From positions 1 through 41,048 of the IMG/VR virus record IMGVR_UViG_3300025122_000044: 41,048 bases of DNA. One strand, 5' to 3'. The stretch's first letter is position 1. Every line of letters starts with the position of its first letter. Positions 27,622-40,463 of the stretch are shown here, piece after piece. Both the position numbers and the translations under genes were made by a program. Below the pieces are notes generated by a model that saw only the letters and a program-made list of their open reading frames with translations, made no database searches and had not been told where the DNA came from. The stretch comes from a virus.

Positions 27622-27632
27622 CTATCTCTCTG

Positions 27633-28083
27633 TGGACCTGGCACGAGTCGAACGTGCGTCTTCAAACACTCATGTATCAATTGATACGACCATGCCTAAT
27701 TGCTGCTAGGCTCAGAAGGGCAAACATGGTTTGCCTCCACCAGGACATTCCTTATAGCTGAATCCGAAGCTCGTACTACCACATATTAGGCAGTACAATT
27801 TCTAAATTAAATGACCCACTCTTATAACCGCTGGTGTCTGGCGGGGTTGACGTTGATTCTGTTGAAAGGCTCAACGTTTCACAAAGCCCCTGTCACTACT
27901 TACGCAGCGACTGCGACGCGACTGCCGAAGAAAGAGCTAAGCTCCTCACGGATGTTCGCGAAGGTTTCAGAAATGGCGTTGCCAATTACTGTTTCACATA
28001 CTTTTATTCACGTGAGCCAAGCATGTTTCTCACGGGTCGCAATCTTTACCTTCTTGTATCCAAATCGATACCATTTCAGGCCC
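27633..28083 (-). ncRNA. ssrA: Phage-encoded tmRNA
   Basis: The 450-base gap holds a tmRNA. The 5-prime end GGGCCTG (28077-28083) pairs along all seven bases, with one G-U, with CAGGTCC at 27634-27640. The T arm reads GACGCACGTTCGACTCGTGCC, with a perfect five-pair stem and the TTCGACT loop typical of tmRNA. Between them lies an open frame for a proteolysis tag ending in AVAA and stop TAA at 27900-27902. Several hairpins after the tag could form the pseudoknots. The 3-prime end is A-C-A rather than ACCA, so CCA must be added, and this phage encodes a CCA-adding enzyme. tmRNA frees stalled ribosomes and tags their products for ClpP-type proteases. Both the tRNA half and the tag are seen directly. 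Confidence 0.88.
27900..27983 (-). other. tmRNA tag-peptide reading frame
   Basis: From GCG at 27959 the frame encodes ANIREELSSFFGSRVAVAA and TAA. A resume codon GGC at 27981-27983 is the better fit, because the bases just before it resemble those before the E. coli resume codon, and it would add eight residues. The VAVAA end is the signal recognised by ClpXP-type proteases in other bacteria. Confidence 0.75.
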
Positions 28084-28517: not shown

Positions 28518-28718
28518 CTATCCTTCTTCGCTTCCAGCGTCAAGAAAACCCATGTGCTTCATCACCTTATCCACAGTGCTCATGAGCTCTTTCGCCAGTT
28601 CGACTTCTCGCTGTAGAAGGAGGAGTTGGTACAGGTCAGAGGCTCTGTTGTGGAAGTCGATCGTTATCAACTCCCACCTCTCCGGCTCTCCCGGAATCAG
28701 TCTCGCCTGATCTGGCAT
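28518..28718 (-). CDS. Hypothetical small helical protein
   Basis: A 66-residue protein from ATG 28718, which has GGAG just upstream. An ATG at 28730 is an alternative. The last 83 bases of the reverse transcriptase gene are also read by this gene in another frame. It is mostly helical (LYQLLLLQREVELAKELMSTVDKVMK). Its position directly after the reverse transcriptase makes it a possible retron accessory protein, but this is not shown. Confidence 0.5.
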   Translation of the reverse strand: MPDQARLIPGEPERWELITIDFHNRASDLYQLLLLQREVELAKELMSTVDKVMKHMGFLDAGSEEG

Positions 28719-29637
28719 GTTCTCCTTCATACGTTCTCATGAGAGAGTCGTATTGCGATTGCTTTATGCTTCTTATGTATTCGAGAAGTCCTTGACTACT
28801 ATCGTCAATCGATTTCCCGCGCAGTCCTAAAAAGTGAAGGTGCTGACGCAATGCGTTCCGTACCTTCTTCGAGACACCTAGTGTCTCATTATTTACAACA
28901 ATTCCAGTGACTGTCATCCTCTGGAAGTATGGCGTGAGCTTAACCTTCCGCTTATTCACACGGAAAGAAGCCTGCTCCATCAACTCACGTATCCGTCCAG
29001 TGAACCATTTGGGAATTTCTTTGCCACTAAAACTGAGATCATCAGCGTAGCGGGTATAGTTCAGTCCCTGTGAGTCAGCCAGTCGTCTCAGCTCAAAATC
29101 TAATGGAGTGAATACGATGTTGGCTAGTGCTGGACTAGTACATGCACCTTGCGGGAGGGCACCGTCGAGGGTACAGAGAGATGTGAGCACTTCTGCAGCA
29201 ACGGCTTCCCAATGCAAAGCTGGGATTGGATCTCCTGCCGCTATAGTTGGGGAGGTTTCCTCTCCAACAGCTTCCATCAATTGGACAGGCAGAGATTTCC
29301 ACACGTCTTCGCTCACACCCTGTAACATTTGATACACCATGTACGATGTTACTGATGGGAAGAAGTCCTTGAGATCGATGTTCAGTACATACCATTTCTC
29401 ATCCTTATCAAGATGGCGATGGGGCATGGCATTGGTGATGGGGCTACGCCCCTTTCTAAATCCATGAGCTGCATCATGAAGAGGAAAGGTATCGAACCAT
29501 GTCTTAGCTAGTTCCTGCCAGTGAATAATATCACCAATAGGTTCCGTAATCTTACGTCGCTTCCCGTTGGGTTTTGGTACATAATAGATGCGGTAGCAGT
29601 CTCGCTTATTAGCGAGGATCTTCTGCAAGCTATCCAT
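28636..29637 (-). CDS. Retron-type reverse transcriptase
   Basis: A protein of 333 residues from the ATG at 29637, which overlaps the TAA stop of the HNH gene (TAATG). An upstream ATG at 29670 is possible. The catalytic motifs are clear: NIDLKDFFPSV and YADDLSFSG (YADD about 197-200), with LPQGACTSPALANIVF before it. Two retron hallmarks are present: NAMPH (the NAxxH motif, about residue 69) and VTGIVVN (the VTG motif, about 243). These separate it from diversity-generating and group II intron enzymes. Retron RTs copy a structured ncRNA into msDNA. The enzyme is preceded by an HNH gene and a structured gap. Confidence 0.88.
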   Translation of the reverse strand: MDSLQKILANKRDCYRIYYVPKPNGKRRKITEPIGDIIHWQELAKTWFDTFPLHDAAHGFRKGRSPITNAMPHRHLDKDEKWYVLNIDLKDFFPSVTSYMVYQMLQGVSEDVWKSLPVQLMEAVGEETSPTIAAGDPIPALHWEAVAAEVLTSLCTLDGALPQGACTSPALANIVFTPLDFELRRLADSQGLNYTRYADDLSFSGKEIPKWFTGRIRELMEQASFRVNKRKVKLTPYFQRMTVTGIVVNNETLGVSKKVRNALRQHLHFLGLRGKSIDDSSQGLLEYIRSIKQSQYDSLMRTYEGEHARSGETDSGRAGEVGVDNDRLPQQSL

Positions 29638-30260
29638 TACAGCTGCTCTCCCTTCAGGAATGTCTTCCAACTTGGATGACTAACAGCAACTCCCCTAAAT
29701 GACTTCCACTTAGGAATGAATGGCTCTCTTAGCAACTTCATCCCTGCTTCTTCGGGTGTTCTTCCACCCTTCTGTGAGTTACAGGGAACACATGATGTTA
29801 CACAGTTCATGAAGTTGGTTCCTTGGAATCCATTCTTCTTAGCTCGTGGCACAACATGGTCAATGTTTAGTAGCCAATCCCCATTTCTATCTTTCTTCTT
29901 GCCACCATAGCTTACACCACAATACTGACAGGTGTAACGATCACGTTCAAAGATGCCATTCCGACTGTATTTTACAACTCTGTCAGGCAATCTATTGTAT
30001 CGTGTCAACACCAAGATATGAGGAACTAGTACTGGAATCTTAGCATTTCCATGTTGGAAATAACCGACACCCATTACGAGGTTCTCTTTGTCCACTGGCG
30101 CTTCTAGCCAGCTTTCTAAACTGTGAACCTCATATGTATCAGGATGGATAGCATTTGCTGAACCATTAAACAGTTGCCGAAAGGCTTGCTTAACATCCAC
30201 GATGTGGATCGGTATCCAGTGCTTGTTCAACACCAATGCGTCACTTTTTCGGCTCTTCAT
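29637..30260 (-). CDS. HNH nuclease paired with the retron reverse transcriptase
   Basis: A 207-residue protein. The first 90 residues resemble the N-terminal domain found in many bacterial HNH proteins (LNKHWIPIHIVDVKQAFRQLF). The HNH core is CQYCG, LNIDHVVPRAKKNG and NCVTSCVPCNSQKGG, with all expected residues. It has a normal ribosome site (AAGGATGAGGG), unlike the two leaderless HNH genes. Its stop overlaps the RT start. It could be the toxic effector of a retron defence unit or an ordinary homing nuclease; tight linkage favours the first, without proof. Confidence 0.85.
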   Translation of the reverse strand: MKSRKSDALVLNKHWIPIHIVDVKQAFRQLFNGSANAIHPDTYEVHSLESWLEAPVDKENLVMGVGYFQHGNAKIPVLVPHILVLTRYNRLPDRVVKYSRNGIFERDRYTCQYCGVSYGGKKKDRNGDWLLNIDHVVPRAKKNGFQGTNFMNCVTSCVPCNSQKGGRTPEEAGMKLLREPFIPKWKSFRGVAVSHPSWKTFLKGEQL

Positions 30261-30280
30261 CCCTCATCCTTTTGAGAGTG

Positions 30281-30341
30281 TGGTGGTACGTTAGGAATCG
30301 AACCTGAGGGGAAGCGTCCTTCACCCAGCCATTTCCGTACC
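30281..30341 (-). other. Truncated tRNA-like element with encoded CCA
   Basis: The element of 61 bases starts GGTACGG and ends CGTACCACCA, so six acceptor pairs form and CCA is encoded. A D-arm-like stretch resembles that of Ser or Leu tRNAs, and the T loop is TTCGATT, but the anticodon arm is missing. It could be a decayed tRNA or a tRNA-like signal. It begins four bases after the candidate retron RNA. Confidence 0.5.
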
Positions 30342-30344
30342 AAA

Positions 30345-30492
30345 ATGCTATCAAGATATTATAAGATAGGCAGTTCTTCTTATATTGGGAGCCATCACGA
30401 TCGTGATGGCATTATATCAGGCGGTCGTCCTGATCTATCCACAATTAGATATAAGTCGTGAGCTATCGATCTAACAACTATTTTGACAGCAT
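30345..30492 (-). ncRNA. Candidate retron ncRNA (msr-msd)
   Basis: Between the E1 gene and the HNH-RT pair, ATGCTGTCAA (30483-30492) pairs through ten bases, one G-U, with TTGATAGCAT (30345-30354). The enclosed 128 bases hold four hairpins in a row: TTAGAT/ATCTAA, ATCAGG/CCTGAT, a perfect 20-base palindrome near 30391-30410, and TATAAGA/TCTTATA. An outer closing stem around a run of hairpins next to a retron RT is the a1/a2 layout of retron RNAs. No conserved priming site could be assigned, and the msd stem is shorter than usual. Confidence 0.4.
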
Positions 30493-30497
30493 AATGC

Positions 30498-31463
30498 TTA
30501 CACAGCTTTTAACTTGCCCTTGTAAGCTACATCATAGAGATTTAACTCTCGTAAGGTGTCTTGAAATTCAGACACCTTGTTGGCAGCGATCTCAAGATTC
30601 TTCTCAGTCAGCCGCACCGGGCTAGACTGATTGGTGAGCGTCTTGAAATACACCATGTGATGGTTCAAGGGCTCATGCTTGAGAATCTGCTGCAAGATAT
30701 TAAGCAGTACTTGAGAAGCCATCATGTTGACGAAGATCGTCTGAGGATTTTCAAGAGCTGCCTCTGCACAGCTTGCCCTGGCTGCTATCTCCTCTGTAGG
30801 AAGCATGCCTAGATCTTCGAATGCTGTTGGAAACATCTCAAAGTAGTTGGGTAGGGTAAACGGCGCTCGATCTGTATGAGTCGAGTCCATCCCGCGTATT
30901 GTTGGAAACCTACACCTGTAGCCTACAACAATCTGACCATGATGTTCCTCATTGCCAGAATCTAGCCAGAACGATTCGTATAGCTGACTTCTCTTCTCGT
31001 ACCACTTCCAAATCAATCGACGTGTCTTGTTGTTATCCACACAAGAAACGATGATTGGTTTAGCGTTACGAACTTGATTGAAGACTACCCGATCAATAGC
31101 TTCGGGAGTTTCCAAGAAGCTATTGGCATATGCGATATCCAGGCCAAATGCTGTGGAGTATCGCCGGGCCAACACCTCGGCCTTAGGCTTCCCAATGTCA
31201 CTTACAATGAAGTTCTGGCGAATGAGATTCTTCTCTTCTACCAGATCTCCATCCACAATAACCAACTTGATGGTATCTGCTCGGGATGAGCCCATCGCCC
31301 CTCGCCGGGTCTTGTTGATCAATGAGATGTATCGTGCGAGATGTGGGATAAGATAGCCACCAGTACCACCGGTACCCATGACAACCACAACCTTATCCAC
31401 CGCTCGATTAGAACCACCTCGACTGAAGTAATTCTTGAAGGGATATGTCTTCTCAATCTTCAT
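30498..31463 (-). CDS. E1/ThiF-like adenylating enzyme of PRTRC-like cassette
   Basis: A 321-residue E1-like protein. The nucleotide loop is GTGGTGG at about 30-36. VDGDLVEEKNLIRQNF (71-85) holds the acidic, asparagine and arginine residues for adenylation, and SCVDNNKTRR (140-149) matches the next conserved segment. C184 and C232 are candidate catalytic cysteines. It would adenylate the C-terminus of the Ub-like protein encoded at 34862-35062 and pass it to the E2. It is the last gene of the cassette, two bases from the JAB gene. Confidence 0.85.
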   Translation of the reverse strand: MKIEKTYPFKNYFSRGGSNRAVDKVVVVMGTGGTGGYLIPHLARYISLINKTRRGAMGSSRADTIKLVIVDGDLVEEKNLIRQNFIVSDIGKPKAEVLARRYSTAFGLDIAYANSFLETPEAIDRVVFNQVRNAKPIIVSCVDNNKTRRLIWKWYEKRSQLYESFWLDSGNEEHHGQIVVGYRCRFPTIRGMDSTHTDRAPFTLPNYFEMFPTAFEDLGMLPTEEIAARASCAEAALENPQTIFVNMMASQVLLNILQQILKHEPLNHHMVYFKTLTNQSSPVRLTEKNLEIAANKVSEFQDTLRELNLYDVAYKGKLKAV

Positions 31464-31465
31464 GA

Positions 31466-32995
31466 TTACCCTACAGTGTCCTCATCTTCCATTGCTGCCT
31501 TGAACATCTGAGTATAGACATCTGTCTCTTCATTATCCATCTCATCCATCAAGATGAGACCGAATGCCTCTGGATCTTCTTCGAAGGTAGTCACCGCGAC
31601 ATCGATCTCTGCAGCATATCCATTAGAGATCAGCCGACCAACAAACTTGATGACATCGCCTTGATCCATTGCAGTGCAGAGTTCATCTACACCTTCATAG
31701 AACTCATCATCGCCCAACATGAGCCACCCAAAGTCTCCAATGCCACGTGACCCGTGCGAATCGTACTTACGGGCAAAGTAGTCATCGAAGTCGTCCGGGT
31801 CCTCTCCCGCCGCCCAGACCCTCTCTGTCTCATCCTTCGACAGTCCGTACTTGATCCACTCATCGACAAATTGCTCGCCGAAGATCATCCGCAAGCGATT
31901 CTCGCGCATTTGAATAGTCTGTCCACCCACTGGAGCGGAAGAGACCCCAGGTCGTCCGAGGGGGAGACTGTACTGTCTTGGTTGAGAAGTTGGATGTCCT
32001 GTATAGGAACCACGAAAGCCGGCTGGTCGTCTATGGCCTCCGTAGCTTCCCTGTCCCATCCATGCTTGCATCCATCCATCGTCGTCATCGCTTGACCATG
32101 GCTCCCATCCACTGCCGCCACTACGTGCACCATGGACATGCTTGATGTGACCAGCATGCTTGGCTACATCTTGAACATTCTTGACCCACTCTTCGTGTGG
32201 GTACTGTACAATTGGAATCTCTTCCAAGCCTTCGATCGCTTCTTCTGTACAGTCGAACATATCCCAGAGACTCAACTTGACGTACTTGCCTGCTGCTGGA
32301 CAGTGAGCGCGCAGTGCCCACTCTGGTTTCTTACGCTCAACATGACCCACCACGCCGAACAACCTAAGAGCCTTCTCATCAGCTGTATCCGTACCCGAGA
32401 AGTAACCTGACATTGTATTATGACTATGGATCTCCATAGCTGTCAGATATCGCCCATTAGACTCATACTTATCATTCCGCTCATAATTGACGGAAGCCTT
32501 AGAGACTCGATGAGTAGGAACATCGATGAAGTATTCCTCTTCTTCCTTGTCCCAATAAATAACAGCATAAGCCTCAGCTTGCCGCATATCCTTACAGATC
32601 TTACGGAAAAAGCTTACGATCTGCGCAAACATATTGCGAGGAATCTTCGGCAGCTTGAGATGGAACCCTTCCTCAATACTTGATGAAAGTCCCTTGAGCT
32701 TGTTGTCATGCTGCTTTACAACGATGACACCAATCTCATTCTCTTCTCGCACATAGATACCATCACCCTGAGGGATGGTAGTTACCGGCTTTTCAAATGT
32801 ACCAGTAAGAACTCCTTCTTCAGGAATCTCTGACACAAAGCCGTGGCGGCGCTGAGCAATTCGGAGCTTGGCTGCATCCTTAGCAGCATCCCGCTCCTTC
32901 TTTGCTTTGTATTCCTCAACCCTATTCTTCATTTGCTCAGGTGTAGGCTTACCCTTCATTACCTGAACCTGCGTACCATTTCTTAATGAACCCAT
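31466..32995 (-). CDS. JAB/JAMM metalloprotease of PRTRC-like cassette
   Basis: A 509-residue protein. An N-terminal helical region of about 50 residues is followed by a JAB domain with the complete zinc motif HSHNTMSGYFSGTD (H190, H192, D203), the HxHx10D signature of active deubiquitinase-type isopeptidases. The second half, about 250 residues, is glycine- and serine-rich in the middle and then acidic, and has no motif I recognise. PRTRC protein A of plasmids combines the same domain with other material. It would process the Ub-like precursor or remove it from targets. It overlaps the E2 gene by one base. Confidence 0.87.
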   Translation of the reverse strand: MGSLRNGTQVQVMKGKPTPEQMKNRVEEYKAKKERDAAKDAAKLRIAQRRHGFVSEIPEEGVLTGTFEKPVTTIPQGDGIYVREENEIGVIVVKQHDNKLKGLSSSIEEGFHLKLPKIPRNMFAQIVSFFRKICKDMRQAEAYAVIYWDKEEEEYFIDVPTHRVSKASVNYERNDKYESNGRYLTAMEIHSHNTMSGYFSGTDTADEKALRLFGVVGHVERKKPEWALRAHCPAAGKYVKLSLWDMFDCTEEAIEGLEEIPIVQYPHEEWVKNVQDVAKHAGHIKHVHGARSGGSGWEPWSSDDDDGWMQAWMGQGSYGGHRRPAGFRGSYTGHPTSQPRQYSLPLGRPGVSSAPVGGQTIQMRENRLRMIFGEQFVDEWIKYGLSKDETERVWAAGEDPDDFDDYFARKYDSHGSRGIGDFGWLMLGDDEFYEGVDELCTAMDQGDVIKFVGRLISNGYAAEIDVAVTTFEEDPEAFGLILMDEMDNEETDVYTQMFKAAMEDEDTVG

Positions 32996-33681
32996 CAGTA
33001 ATTCTCGCCTCGGACTGTCTCGTTAATGACATCTAAAATTGTTTTGGAAAGATTATAGTCTGGGTCATGCTGATACTCGCCAGCAGTTGCACACTGCTGG
33101 ACAAAAGGCAGACTTCCACCTAAATCTTCGTTGAATGGAGTGGTATAGAAAGCATTGATAGCACCACGAACAGACCATAGGTTACGAATGTCAATGACAT
33201 TGTCACCCCAACATACGTTTCCATTGTCGTAGACATTGCCATAGCGATTGAAAGAGAAGACAGTGTCTCGCTCCCCTCTCACTGAGCGATGTAAGCCAAA
33301 GACTTTCATTCCTCTCAACCTATTGCCCGTCGCCTCGCCTGTTGATGGGACTGGGTTTAGGCAAAAGGCAAAGAGAAGATGGGGAAAAGGTACTTGCTCA
33401 ACAAAGGTTCGATCGTTGCTTCGGCGACCAAAATATAGGTCGCTTTTTCGAGGAGCTGACTCACAAATAAAGCCTTGCTTGTCACCTCGTTGCCCAAACC
33501 AGAGACAGCTTAAGGTTCCACCAGGAATCAAGCCAGTTTCAAACGATGTATCACTAAAGATATATCGTAGGTCATCTGGATTCACATTCTTTACAGTCTG
33601 AGTTGTTTTATGAAACTCAGTAATTGTAGCGAGTGAACCCTCAATCTCAATTGAGACCTTTTGCACTTCTCTAGATGCCAT
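32995..33681 (-). CDS. Prokaryotic E2-like conjugating enzyme (E2-D / PRTRC B)
   Basis: A 228-residue protein. The segment FNRYGNVYDNGNVCWGDN places a cysteine at about 157 in the VCWG context typical of the E2-D family found with PRTRC systems, where this cysteine is thought to accept the Ub-like protein. The upstream LLFAFCLNP and downstream helices also fit the family by eye. It shares one base with both the upstream 273-residue gene and the JAB gene, so all are coupled. Conjugation activity is inferred from family and neighbours. Confidence 0.8.
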   Translation of the reverse strand: MASREVQKVSIEIEGSLATITEFHKTTQTVKNVNPDDLRYIFSDTSFETGLIPGGTLSCLWFGQRGDKQGFICESAPRKSDLYFGRRSNDRTFVEQVPFPHLLFAFCLNPVPSTGEATGNRLRGMKVFGLHRSVRGERDTVFSFNRYGNVYDNGNVCWGDNVIDIRNLWSVRGAINAFYTTPFNEDLGGSLPFVQQCATAGEYQHDPDYNLSKTILDVINETVRGENY

Positions 33682-34502
33682 TAGGTTCCTGTTGTCGTCG
33701 TGGTGGTGGGCGAAAAGTACATGTTAGTACTTCCCGCGCTGTCAGCCACCCAATATGTATTATTGAATGTAAGGTAGTTAGAGGTAGATATGACAGGATG
33801 CTCAGTTGTATATGCTTGAGGATCCAGGGTTAGGTAGAGCTCATTGAAGTTATTTCGCTTTGCATCTTGTGCTGCATTGCGCTGCCTTCCAAACTCATCT
33901 GCATTATCTGCTCTATCAATAGCTTCATTGCAGATAGCTTTAAGAGCAGGAAGACAAGTTATCAACTTATACAAGCCTGAGGTTTGATCACTGAGTGTTA
34001 GATGAAATCGTTGATCATATTCATCAAAGAACAAAGTCGCCCGATGAGGTGATTCGGCTGCCTCATCTTGCAATGCCGTAAGTCGAGTTATTAAATCCGC
34101 ATGAATCCTTTGATTGGATAGTAAGCGCCCAGCTCGATCAAACTTCTCTTCAACTTGAGCTAAAGCAGTAATAACCTTACCTTGAGGTGTTGTTGGATCG
34201 ATTGGAATAGCCCAAGTGTAACAATTACGAATGCGACTCCAAGTTTGTCCACCTCCACCTTTATCTCCCAAGATGTAGCCATGAACACCTCGTGGCTTGG
34301 AGATTACCCAATCTGGGAAGTAATATTGGAGTGCCACTTTAAGCAAGCGGCCACTGACAGTAGTGAAGTCGCTCCCCTTTACTCGCTGTCGATCTACATC
34401 CAACATCTTTCTGTCTCGCCCGATGATGCCCTCTCGTTGCAAGAGGTCATGTGCCCGCGCGTAATCCAGAAAGAAGTGATATGCTTGTAAGGCATCGCTC
34501 AT
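33681..34502 (-). CDS. Cassette protein of unknown function (PRTRC F position)
   Basis: A 273-residue protein with a helical, basic first half and a threonine-rich end. I recognise no motif. In plasmid PRTRC cassettes, as I recall, a protein called F lies between the Ub-like C and the E2-like B, and this gene takes the same position. It is joined to the E2 gene and the 91-residue gene by one-base overlaps. It could be an adaptor or the conjugation target. Confidence 0.6.
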   Translation of the reverse strand: MSDALQAYHFFLDYARAHDLLQREGIIGRDRKMLDVDRQRVKGSDFTTVSGRLLKVALQYYFPDWVISKPRGVHGYILGDKGGGGQTWSRIRNCYTWAIPIDPTTPQGKVITALAQVEEKFDRAGRLLSNQRIHADLITRLTALQDEAAESPHRATLFFDEYDQRFHLTLSDQTSGLYKLITCLPALKAICNEAIDRADNADEFGRQRNAAQDAKRNNFNELYLTLDPQAYTTEHPVISTSNYLTFNNTYWVADSAGSTNMYFSPTTTTTTGT

Positions 34503-34777
34503 TAGATGTATGTATCTGCTCCAATTACTGCTGGGATTTCACGAACTCGACTGAAGATTCTAGTAGTTCTATGCATATCTGTCTCTAAGGAGCTGATCTG
34601 CATCTTAAGTTCATCTAGATCATCGAAGGTTAAACCATGCCTCTCCATGAGTGGCACAATATTAGACGGTGTTCGCAGCTTGATTAGATCCTTTAAGAAC
34701 CCAAGCCTTGCTGCAATCGGTGTCTCTTCGATGTTTGCTGCTGCCAATGCAGCAGTTACTTCTTCAATAAAGGTCAC
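34502..34777 (-). CDS. Hypothetical helical protein in the cassette
   Basis: A 91-residue helical protein, partly amphipathic (LGFLKDLIKLRTPSNIVPLM). It lies between the Ub-like gene and the 273-residue gene, overlapping the latter by one base. No family recognised. Role in the Ub-like pathway is inferred from position only. Confidence 0.55.
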   Translation of the reverse strand: MTFIEEVTAALAAANIEETPIAARLGFLKDLIKLRTPSNIVPLMERHGLTFDDLDELKMQISSLETDMHRTTRIFSRVREIPAVIGADTYI

Positions 34778-34803
34778 GTTACTATCTTATAGGTATGGTG
34801 AGC

Positions 34804-34826
34804 AAGGGGAGGAGTGACCTCCCCTT
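34804..34826 (-). other. Intercistronic hairpin after the Ub-like gene
   Basis: AAGGGGAGG and CCTCCCCTT form a perfect nine-pair stem with a five-base loop between the Ub-like gene and the 91-residue gene. No U tract follows, so it may stabilise the Ub-like message or attenuate, giving more Ub-like protein than enzymes. This is inference. Confidence 0.5.
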
Positions 34827-34861
34827 ACTCTGTTGTGGTAGGGCTCTCGCCCCCAAGGGTA

Positions 34862-35062
34862 TTAGCCCTTGTTACCAGAAACGACCGAGTAGTCCCAGAA
34901 CGTCGAATCGTCAGTCTCCCGCGTTGTTACGCGACAGTTAGACAACTCCGGCCACTCTTCAGCGAGAACTTCTCCGAACTCTGCTGGAGTGAGGCTCGGG
35001 TCCTCGACAGGGATGGACTCGCCGTTGTACCGTGCAATGACGGGCTTCGCGGAATCTGCCAT
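34862..35062 (-). CDS. Ubiquitin-like protein (PRTRC C-like)
   Basis: A 66-residue protein. The segment ARYNGESIPVEDPSLTPAEF, then VLAEEWPELSNCRV and the end SVVSGNKG, correspond closely to PRTRC system protein C, which has YNG near its start, a DPNPSLSPEE-type turn, a YPEL segment and a GTKG end. The family has a ubiquitin-like fold. The C-terminal KG tail would be the conjugated end. It is the first gene of the cassette in the direction of transcription. Function as a modifier is inferred from the linked E1, E2 and JAB genes. Confidence 0.78.
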   Translation of the reverse strand: MADSAKPVIARYNGESIPVEDPSLTPAEFGEVLAEEWPELSNCRVTTRETDDSTFWDYSVVSGNKG

Positions 35063-39017: not shown

Positions 39018-39683
39018 TTAACAGCAAGACCTTTCCTTCTTCTTCGTGGTGGAATCAAGAGTCGAACTTGTAACAAGAGGGGCATGAACCCTCTGCCTAC
39101 CCGGTAGGCTCCCACCATTTCGACGCCAATGCCTGTACTTATGCAAGTACTGCCCGAGCTTGCGCAGATAATGGCGTCGTGGCGTGCTGAACCCTGTATT
39201 GTAGTGCCCCATCCAGTACGGAACCCCGTACATCTTCCTGGCACTACCCTTCTTCCTCTTCCAGAAGTTCAGCGTGTGGTAATAAATACCACGGTTCAGC
39301 TTATCCCTGTACAGATCCCGACACTTCCTAATGCGCAGGTTGTCGGGTACAGGATGCCAAGCCTGGTGTTTACGCCAGGACTCACAGTGAATCTGATGCC
39401 GTCCATAGTCTCCTGAAGCTGATCGCACATAGGTATGGGTAGGACTCTCTCGAAACCTCCTCCTCCCTACATACAGGGCTTGTGGCCCAGCTTCAATCCG
39501 AATATGAGCCAGCACCAGATAAGGGTCGTAGCCTTGTCGTGTTGCTTCCTCCACATCCTCCATCACCTTTGGGTGACCGAAATCAGGGAGAGGTTCAACA
39601 TATTTGGCATGAGCAGCTGTGCTCCAAAGAGCAAGCATAATCATGGCAAGCGTGGCTACAAAAACTTTCGTTGGCGTTCGCAT
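39018..39683 (-). CDS. Secreted lytic transglycosylase-like protein
   Basis: A 221-residue protein. The first 26 residues form a signal peptide (basic start, hydrophobic core, STAAHA cleavage site). The SLT-type fold is suggested by a catalytic glutamate in RIEAGPQ, the SGDYGRHQIH segment and GHYNTGF, which correspond to the conserved motifs of soluble lytic transglycosylases. It would cleave peptidoglycan outside the cytoplasm. The frame continues through a tRNA gene, so its last 34 residues are encoded by tRNA sequence and its immediate flank and are probably a recent or nonfunctional extension. The C-terminus is basic. Confidence 0.75.
   Translation of the reverse strand: MRTPTKVFVATLAMIMLALWSTAAHAKYVEPLPDFGHPKVMEDVEEATRQGYDPYLVLAHIRIEAGPQALYVGRRRFRESPTHTYVRSASGDYGRHQIHCESWRKHQAWHPVPDNLRIRKCRDLYRDKLNRGIYYHTLNFWKRKKGSARKMYGVPYWMGHYNTGFSTPRRHYLRKLGQYLHKYRHWRRNGGSLPGRQRVHAPLVTSSTLDSTTKKKERSCC
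39047..39116 (-). tRNA. tRNA with CAU anticodon
   Basis: The acceptor GGTGGGA pairs along seven bases (one G-U) with TTCCACC. The anticodon arm is GAGGG-TTCATGC-CCCTC, giving CAT, and the T loop is TTCGACT. The D arm is short. It is elongator Met or, with lysidine, Ile. The CCA is encoded only as far as A. It lies wholly inside the 3-prime end of the transglycosylase gene on the same strand. Confidence 0.8.
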
Positions 39684-40000
39684 ATTCTCTGGCGTCGTGC
39701 TCTCTTAATATCTCCAAGAGACTTTGGATGTAGCACTTGCCATCTAGTTTCCTTGTTGATCTCAGGGAAGCAGCGCCGACACCCGATGTTCCTACAAGCA
39801 GGACCTTGCCCTGCCTGATGGTCATTCATCTTGATTTTGCTCTGCCTCTTCGTACGTAGAGCTGCACGCCGATCTGATGCACCGCCCTTCTTCTTGTTCG
39901 AGGAGTCGCGAGTCTCTGCCATAGAGGCATAAGCCTGTTTGCGCCTCTGGTTCCGGGTCAACCCCAGATTCTTTTTACCAGACCGTCTTCCCTTAGCCAT
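39656..40000 (-). CDS. Hypothetical basic protein
   Basis: A 114-residue protein very rich in lysine and arginine, with CRNIGCRRC near residue 70 as a possible zinc knuckle. It overlaps the transglycosylase start by 28 bases. The frame lies between two tRNA genes. It may bind nucleic acid, but no family is recognised. Confidence 0.5.
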   Translation of the reverse strand: MAKGRRSGKKNLGLTRNQRRKQAYASMAETRDSSNKKKGGASDRRAALRTKRQSKIKMNDHQAGQGPACRNIGCRRCFPEINKETRWQVLHPKSLGDIKRARRQRICERQRKFL

Positions 40001-40022
40001 GGTTCTTCTCCGTATTTAATTG

Positions 40023-40106
40023 CGGAAGGTGTGAGGATCGAACTCACGCGACCTTGCGATCGGACACCTTAGCAGGGTGCTTGGGACGCCATCTCCCGTA
40101 CCTTCC
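40023..40106 (-). tRNA. tRNA-Ser (GCU)
   Basis: Acceptor GGAAGGT/ACCTTCC is perfect. The anticodon arm CACC-CTGCTAA-GGTG gives GCT. A long variable arm follows, as in serine tRNAs, and the T arm is GTGAG-TTCGATC-CTCAC. CCA is not encoded. It would read AGC and AGU codons. Confidence 0.9.
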
Positions 40107-40378
40107 TAGTCATTCAAAGCCTCAAGAAGAGACTTTTCCATCATATCCATAAGAAGAGCGCTAACCCTCTCTCGTAAGCGAATGAAGTAGTCGGGACCTG
40201 GTTCACCATTAACCAAAACCCCACTCCTTAACCCTTGCTGTAACAACACGACCAACTTAAGAAGAATCCAATTGCGAGATGGTGTTTCACCATTCTCTTT
40301 GAATTCATCTAACTCTGCATCAATCCATAAGACTTGAGTCTTAAAGGTTTCCTCAGGTGTAAGTGTTCGTGCTCCCAT
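40106..40378 (-). CDS. Hypothetical helical protein
   Basis: A 90-residue acidic, helical protein without recognised motif. It lies between two tRNA genes and its stop codon touches the 5-prime base of tRNA-Ser. Its good start and codon frame support it as real. Function unknown. Confidence 0.55.
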   Translation of the reverse strand: MGARTLTPEETFKTQVLWIDAELDEFKENGETPSRNWILLKLVVLLQQGLRSGVLVNGEPGPDYFIRLRERVSALLMDMMEKSLLEALND

Positions 40379-40388
40379 TCTTTCCTAG

Positions 40389-40463
40389 TAGCGGAGGCCG
40401 GATTCGAACCGACGACCTCTTGGGTATGAACCAAGCAAGCTAACCAGACTGCTCCACTCCGCA
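40389..40463 (-). tRNA. tRNA with CAU anticodon, initiator-like
   Basis: Anticodon arm CTTGG-TTCATAC-CCAAG gives CAT. The D arm GAGCAGTCTGGTTAGCT and the unpaired first acceptor base (T1 opposite T72) are features of initiator tRNAs, but the three G-C pairs expected in the initiator anticodon stem are incomplete. T arm GTCGG-TTCGAAT-CCGGC. No CCA encoded. Confidence 0.8.

Follow-up and report, generated by a model that had tools for sequence, protein, structure and literature searches.

The window analysed here, a 41-kb virus record taken whole (IMG/VR record IMGVR_UViG_3300025122_000044, 41,048 nucleotides), carries on its minus strand, between positions 35062 and 30498, six tightly packed open reading frames (ORFs) that read as a ubiquitin-like conjugation cassette related to the PRTRC cassettes of plasmids. 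In order, they encode a 66-aa ubiquitin-like modifier (Ubl; 34862..35062) with the C-terminus SGNKG, a positionally conserved 91-aa companion (the small protein; 34502..34777) with the hydrophobic C-terminus ..DTYI, a fast-diverging 273-aa companion (the large protein; 33681..34502), a 228-aa E2-like conjugating enzyme (32995..33681) with a putative catalytic Cys157 preceded by Asn149, a 509-aa JAB/JAMM metalloprotease with a long C-terminal extension (31466..32995), and a 321-aa E1-like adenylating enzyme of the ThiF fold (30498..31463) with C232 as its candidate catalytic Cys. An interval of 84 bases separates the Ubl gene from that of the 91-aa protein, and is followed by three 1-base overlaps and finally a 2-base gap. 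The original prediction, made from the letters of the sequence, described six coupled genes with these coordinates and lengths, and all six ORFs are present on the minus strand; the motifs that it claimed are likewise all seen in the sequence, within an SGNKG end, GNVCWG and HSHx10D.

Each of the four core proteins matched a PRTRC profile. The Ubl matched PRTRC_C (2.5e-4; 21.1 bits, curated cut-off 45.95), the E2 matched PRTRC_B (4.5e-5; 22.9 bits, curated cut-off 131.45), the JAB protease matched PRTRC_A (1.2e-13; 51.1 bits, curated cut-off 101.8) and the E1 matched PRTRC_ThiF (7.9e-32; 110.5 bits, curated cut-off 144.75). Corresponding Pfam matches lay above the cut-off for the JAB protease (Prok-JAB, 7e-6) and the E1 (ThiF, 7e-15), and below it for the Ubl (Prok_Ub, 6e-4) and the E2 (Prok-E2_D, 1e-4). 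The E1 was also matched by E1-E2 models of PADLOC (5.6e-6). We additionally built hidden Markov models (HMMs) from relatives only, leaving out the window together with loci L010, L047 and L127. These leave-out HMMs recovered the Ubl at E = 1.6e-9, the E2 at 2.9e-29, the JAB protease at 3.9e-62 and the E1 at 3.2e-77, and each gave a single match, the expected gene, among the 271 ORFs of 40 aa or more in the window. The earlier view of a PRTRC-related, phage-borne cassette that lacks ParB and contains a full modifier-E1-E2-protease set is supported.

Residues expected of such enzymes are conserved. Positions N149 and C157 of the E2 are invariant in an alignment of 21 sequences, and the resulting Asn-x7-Cys arrangement occurs in 125 of 147 relatives, as opposed to 16.5% of shuffled sequences; classical E2 enzymes display the same spacing, as HPN-x7-C. 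In the JAB protease, E141, H190, S191, H192, S200 and D203 (E...HxHx7Sx2D) are invariant across 17 sequences, and HxHx7Sx2D is found in 73 of 77 viral JAB members. The JAB gene of Acinetobacter phage ME3 (L004:3640-6750) is interrupted at the catalytic HSH motif by ORFs resembling homing endonucleases, and probably contains an intron. The E1 contains a nucleotide-binding loop, GTGGTG (GxGGTG), as well as DGD and RQNF motifs, and D143, Cys232 and other residues are invariant in 7 diverse sequences.

The Lys-Gly C-terminus of the Ubl is invariant in a 22-row alignment. An end motif of the xGxKG type is present in 66 of 69 distinct viral Ubl proteins, the exceptions being those of ME3 (..GNKAA), L044 (..GQKNG) and L075 (..GSKAV); 32 of the 69 stop exactly at the motif, and 18 contain two or more such sites. 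Bacillus phage KLEB27-3 gp199 consists of four tandem Ubl repeats, each with an AGVKG end, and other phages have two to six tandem copies. Judged by sequence, the multi-site proteins look like polyubiquitin-style precursors, while the window Ubl and other single-repeat proteins look already mature. The other forms would need a protease, and the JAB protein is the natural candidate for that role. An AlphaFold2 model of the Ubl (predicted local distance difference test, pLDDT, 84) shows a strand-strand-helix-strand-strand, beta-grasp-like arrangement with a floppy tail. Among its top 50 matches in PDB are beta-grasp domains of the UBL, PB1 and protein-G-like types, those of UBL and PB1 at E 0.19-0.3; by sequence, the Ubl profile matched MoaD best of the PDB entries (E 0.025). 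Two further observations concern the Ubl genes of relatives. That of Salmonella phage Arash (66 aa, ..RTGTKG; L007:107-307) is absent from the GenBank annotation, in which gp251 covers the same stretch in a different frame, and in a 316-kb virus contig a gene resembling a GHKL-type ATPase, read by eye, directly precedes the Ubl gene (L011:3414-4802).

The 91-aa companion has a homologue in L010, and in the loci of large phages a small protein near the E2 usually has an acidic stretch at its end, then one aromatic and one aliphatic residue (DDFI, EEDFV or DVDYI, compared to DTYI in the window). This aromatic-aliphatic end is found in 39 of the 73 small ORFs gathered from the interval between the Ubl and E2 genes, the remainder being mostly members of other subfamilies or apparently spurious ORFs. 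For the 273-aa protein, L010 supplies the only detectable relative (31-33% identity), and a search with this family alone returned just the L010 contig; its position is kept while its sequence is not, with 32 clusters among the loci. Homology of the 273-aa family to other proteins in the same position, proposed on the strength of shared motifs, was dropped, as the best HHalign probability was 36% (L143). Neither companion matched a PRTRC F or E profile, although TIGR03742 matched nothing, controls included. The gene order given in the original prediction, C-F-B-A-ThiF, holds only loosely, and neither the 273-aa nor the 91-aa protein could be recognised as PRTRC F or E. In pairs of viral relatives, the ratio of nonsynonymous to synonymous substitution rates (dN/dS) was mostly ~0.05-0.45, and each of the six genes was under purifying selection in the majority of the pairs compared. 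The large and small genes diverged faster in protein sequence than the other cassette genes, and in the L085/L086 pair the large gene reached a dN/dS of 1.25, on few changes.

Related cassettes are widespread in viruses. Searches by tblastn with the E1 found Bacillus phage KLEB27-3, Acinetobacter phage ME3, Vibrio phages D69, D181 and D148, Salmonella phage Arash and others, in which the neighbours of the E1 read as Ubl, E2 and JAB. The window E1 used as a single query against viral contigs found no relatives, and a mixed alignment was too diverse, while a three-sequence alignment succeeded; likewise, a scan of cellular genomes with JAB failed with a single sequence and succeeded with an alignment. 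Scans of IMG/VR gave 35 loci with the E1 alignment and 80 with the JAB alignment, corresponding to ~74 distinct viral loci after near-copies were removed, 63 of which have the order Ubl-E2-JAB-E1. Many of the relative contigs are clearly phages, because a terminase was found in 19 of the 28 tested (18 above the family cut-off). The 41-kb window itself gave no terminase or sheath match, and its phage nature therefore rests on classification and on gene content, which by PHROGs includes a DNA polymerase, a UvsX-like recombinase, a ribonucleotide reductase, PhoH, an endolysin and a Clp-like head protease. Three tRNA genes lie at 39046-40463, and a phage tmRNA (Rfam RF00023, E 6.7e-26) at 27630-28083 on the minus strand.

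A quick, midpoint-rooted E1 tree with 156 rows groups the window with L010 (support 99) and then with L027 (support 97). Long residence in phages is suggested by a clade of 29 rows (support 97) that is entirely viral and includes Arash and D69; the window lies in another viral group, and the annotated PRTRC plasmids L009 and L046 form a separate clade (support 99). The window and L010 share the order Clp-like protease, CCA transferase, cassette, HNH and reverse transcriptase (RT), and in L127 (2682-4409) a phrog_850 RNA-binding protein (2.3e-43) lies near a Clp-like protease. Related cassettes are also common on plasmids. A 240-kb Cytobacillus plasmid (L008, NZ_CP065512) bears a cassette with a two-repeat Ubl as well as a weak phage sheath match (3.6e-5), and may be a phage-plasmid; a metagenome-assembled contig of a Thermoplasmata archaeon (L143) has Ubl-E2-JAB-E1 with an RT nearby.

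Immediately downstream of the E1 gene, and linked to the cassette by position only, are three further minus-strand features: a structured non-coding stretch that separates the E1 gene from the HNH gene (30261..30497), a 207-aa HNH endonuclease (29637..30260; HNH PF01844, 1e-6) whose gene overlaps that of the RT, and a retron-type RT (28636..29670; RT_III-A, 1.8e-63) with the motifs NAMPH, QGACTSP, YADD and VTG. The non-coding stretch folds with a minimum free energy of -72.8 kcal/mol (z -4.2 relative to shuffled sequences) and had no match in Rfam, retrons included. Its 3' part is tRNA-like (GGTTCGATTCC..ACCA; 30280-30340, minus strand), lies just before the HNH gene and was not called as a tRNA; the phage with this ..ACCA stretch also encodes a CCA-adding enzyme. 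We regard the interval 28636-30497 as a candidate phage-borne retron, with the non-coding stretch as its candidate RNA. The window HNH protein is 48% identical to that of L127, and the HNH-RT pair is kept in L010 and L127. Besides the window, 35 virus records were tested, of which 21 had a retron-type RT on the cassette strand, within 8 kb in 18; of 15 selected records at least 100 kb long, 14 had a same-strand RT within 9 kb of the cassette. Combining the 15 records by Fisher's method gave a chance of ~4e-6 for this proximity, the records not being independent of one another. Same-strand RTs lie 0.05-13 kb from cassettes of several E1 lineages (L010, L021, L022, L029, L032, L036, L041, L050, L061, L081, L084, L085, L092, L101 and others), and the recurrent enzymes are QGxxxSP-like rather than of the SQ type of diversity-generating elements. 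No RT match was found in the KLEB27-3, ME3, D69 or Arash records. We consider the link between RT and cassette a lead.

We interpret the window cassette as a phage-encoded module for ubiquitin-like conjugation and deconjugation, with a probability of roughly 75%, and phages with such modules probably run their own protein-tagging system during infection. The course of events that we infer is as follows. The E1 would adenylate the C-terminal Gly66 of the Ubl and take it as a thioester, probably on Cys232, the Ubl would then be passed to Cys157 of the E2, and from there it would be joined to an amine, most likely on a lysine, of some protein in the infected cell. The JAB protease would remove the Ubl and, in relatives, also cleave polyUbl precursors after Lys-Gly, while the fast-diverging large protein and the hydrophobic-tailed small protein would probably choose the target, as an E3-like factor or adaptor.

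Several results weigh against this interpretation. All four window scores are below the curated NCBIfam cut-offs; the 66- and 228-aa proteins, for which a lack of matches would have counted against the original prediction, did find PRTRC_C/Prok_Ub and PRTRC_B/Prok-E2_D, albeit in each case below the cut-off. A search of PDB with the Ubl model gave no match at E <= 0.001 and its very top hits were other proteins; the model is beta-grasp-like and has UBL and PB1 domains among the better matches, which goes only part of the way towards the expected ubiquitin-like fold. The E2 model, although confident (pLDDT 86), likewise gave no PDB fold match at E <= 0.001, with a yeast Ubc2 chain at rank 30 (E 0.2, TM-score 0.17), and these searches did not confirm a UBC fold for the E2. 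The retinoic-acid-binding proteins returned by Foldseek for the E2 were set aside as meaningless (TM-score 0.1).

A first alternative to protein conjugation is a sulfur-carrier or other small-molecule pathway of the ThiS/MoaD type, or adenylation without transfer to protein, as might be suggested by the ThiF-family matches of the E1 and the MoaD match of the Ubl profile. We rejected this reading as very improbable, since an E2 and a JAB protease accompany the E1 in most loci, the Ubl ends in Lys-Gly rather than Gly-Gly and tandem precursors exist; moreover, no sulfurtransferase or cofactor genes were found in the window. More improbable still is that the cassette is a passenger, picked up recently by a phage from a plasmid PRTRC system and now decaying. 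Plasmids do commonly carry related cassettes, yet all of the ORFs are intact, the closest relatives are viral with conserved flanks, and viral dN/dS values are mostly well below 1, and this reading was likewise rejected.

The remaining alternatives concern what would be tagged. We tentatively, and at less than even odds, take the likeliest target to be late proteins of the phage itself, those of packaging or the particle. The cassette lies within 1.1 kb of the terminase, and divergent from it, in 8 of 19 terminase-bearing relatives (L022, L025, L032, L033, L035, L040, L059 and L092); in L084 it is just beyond, at 1.1 kb, in L085 it is 4.3 kb away, and in Arash it adjoins the terminase across the record ends. 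The 116 proteins listed by proteomics of purified Arash particles include the E1, the JAB protease, the E2 and the small protein (PMC10585845). Together, terminase adjacency and this particle listing give a weak hint of late expression and of a role in packaging or the particle. Against this, the 116 listed proteins include many enzymes and may reflect carry-over, and terminase adjacency is mainly a property of a single clade, and the window does not show it. Nor did we use the Arash gp251 proteomics entry as evidence for the Ubl, the deposited frame differing from the Ubl frame. We consider it rather doubtful that the tag is instead placed on host proteins, such as RNA polymerase, a defence protein or the translation apparatus, reprogramming or inactivating them in the service of takeover or counter-defence. 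Such a role would fit the rapid divergence of the large protein at a kept position, as expected of a factor facing changing host targets, and the fact that the cassette is phage-borne with no metabolic pathway genes beside it in the library scans; however, dN/dS of the large gene is low in most pairs, no host link is visible, and in one clade the cassette occupies a conserved place. We find it unlikely that the cassette, HNH and retron-type RT together serve the phage as a defence locus, tagging the proteins of other phages that superinfect the cell. Bacterial Bil systems tag phage tail proteins, same-strand retron-type RTs recur beside cassettes, and L010 retains the HNH-RT pair; on the other hand, the RT is missing from KLEB27-3, ME3, D69 and Arash as noted above, retrons and Ubl cassettes may merely share an accessory region, and defence cargo is less typically kept by vertical descent over long periods.

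Bacterial ubiquitin-like conjugation is represented mainly by antiphage defence systems and uncharacterised plasmid cassettes. If the proposed conjugation module is real, then phages, dozens of which have complete and conserved sets, polyUbl precursors included, would count among the users of this chemistry and not only among its victims. A more ambitious and speculative picture, which we think improbable in its entirety, is that large phages maintain long-standing lineages of Ubl conjugation with polyubiquitin-style precursors, a fast-evolving pair that chooses substrates and a functional tie to neighbouring retron-type RTs, and that these lineages tag particle, packaging or rival proteins during infection. 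Bacillus phage KLEB27-3 offers an isolated model for PRTRC-like biochemistry, to which the open-access literature searched assigns no function. In contrast to the KG-linked remnant proposed earlier as a mass spectrometry signature, trypsin would leave a single Gly on the target (+57.02 Da), which cannot be told by mass from carbamidomethyl, a frequent artefact of alkylation, and standard tryptic proteomics would confuse the two.

Complete phage-borne PRTRC-like sets were not described in the open-access literature that we searched, preprints not covered, although the ME3 and KLEB27-3 records already label individual genes as PRTRC-like. Among known systems, operons of class 6d combine Ubl, JAB, E1 and E2 with a rapidly diverging extra protein, were listed only from cellular genomes, and have an E2 whose Cys is followed by a His described as absolutely conserved (Iyer, Burroughs and Aravind 2006, PMC1779556). 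The window resembles them in having Ubl, E1, E2 and JAB as separate genes of one operon, but the 21 phage E2 sequences lack an invariant His after the Cys and have an invariant Asn184 instead. The polyUbl operons of class 6e have tandem Ubl domains, an inactive E2 and a JAB domain fused to the E1 (PMC1779556); phage relatives share the tandem Ubl domains, whereas the phage E2 retains both the Asn and the Cys, and each of JAB, E2 and E1 is a protein of its own. The antiphage Bil systems (BilABCD) likewise encode Ubl, E2, JAB and E1 in one operon (reviewed in PMC11354881), and the phage cassette differs in being phage-carried and in having two extra genes; no Bil-named PADLOC model matched the window, the presence of Bil models in the library not being confirmed. 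The similarity to CBASS Cap2/Cap3, an E1-E2 fusion with a JAB protein, is in the E1 domain, as seen with the PADLOC E1-E2 models, while the phage E1 and E2 are separate and no CD-NTase model matched among the neighbours. The lambda tail assembly proteins I and K are phage gene products with a ubiquitin-like domain and a JAB peptidase, for which no E1 or E2 was described (PMC1779556).

The closest comparison is with PRTRC itself (TIGR03735-03738, TIGR03742, and ParB TIGR03734). The two have homologous C (Ubl), B (E2), A (JAB) and ThiF (E1) proteins in a cassette that runs in one direction, and the phage models also match the C, E2 and ThiF genes of the PRTRC plasmid L046. They differ in that ParB is missing from the window cassette genes; 24 of 25 related virus or phage records likewise gave no ParB match, and the 25th gave a weak one far away, compared to 9.6e-124 for the control plasmid. 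Furthermore, the phage E1 falls outside the clade of annotated PRTRC plasmids, and many phages have tandem Ubl precursors and a hydrophobic-tailed small protein. With neither ParB nor PRTRC F found and all four profile scores under the curated cut-offs, the window cassette is best described as a PRTRC-like phage variant and not PRTRC proper.

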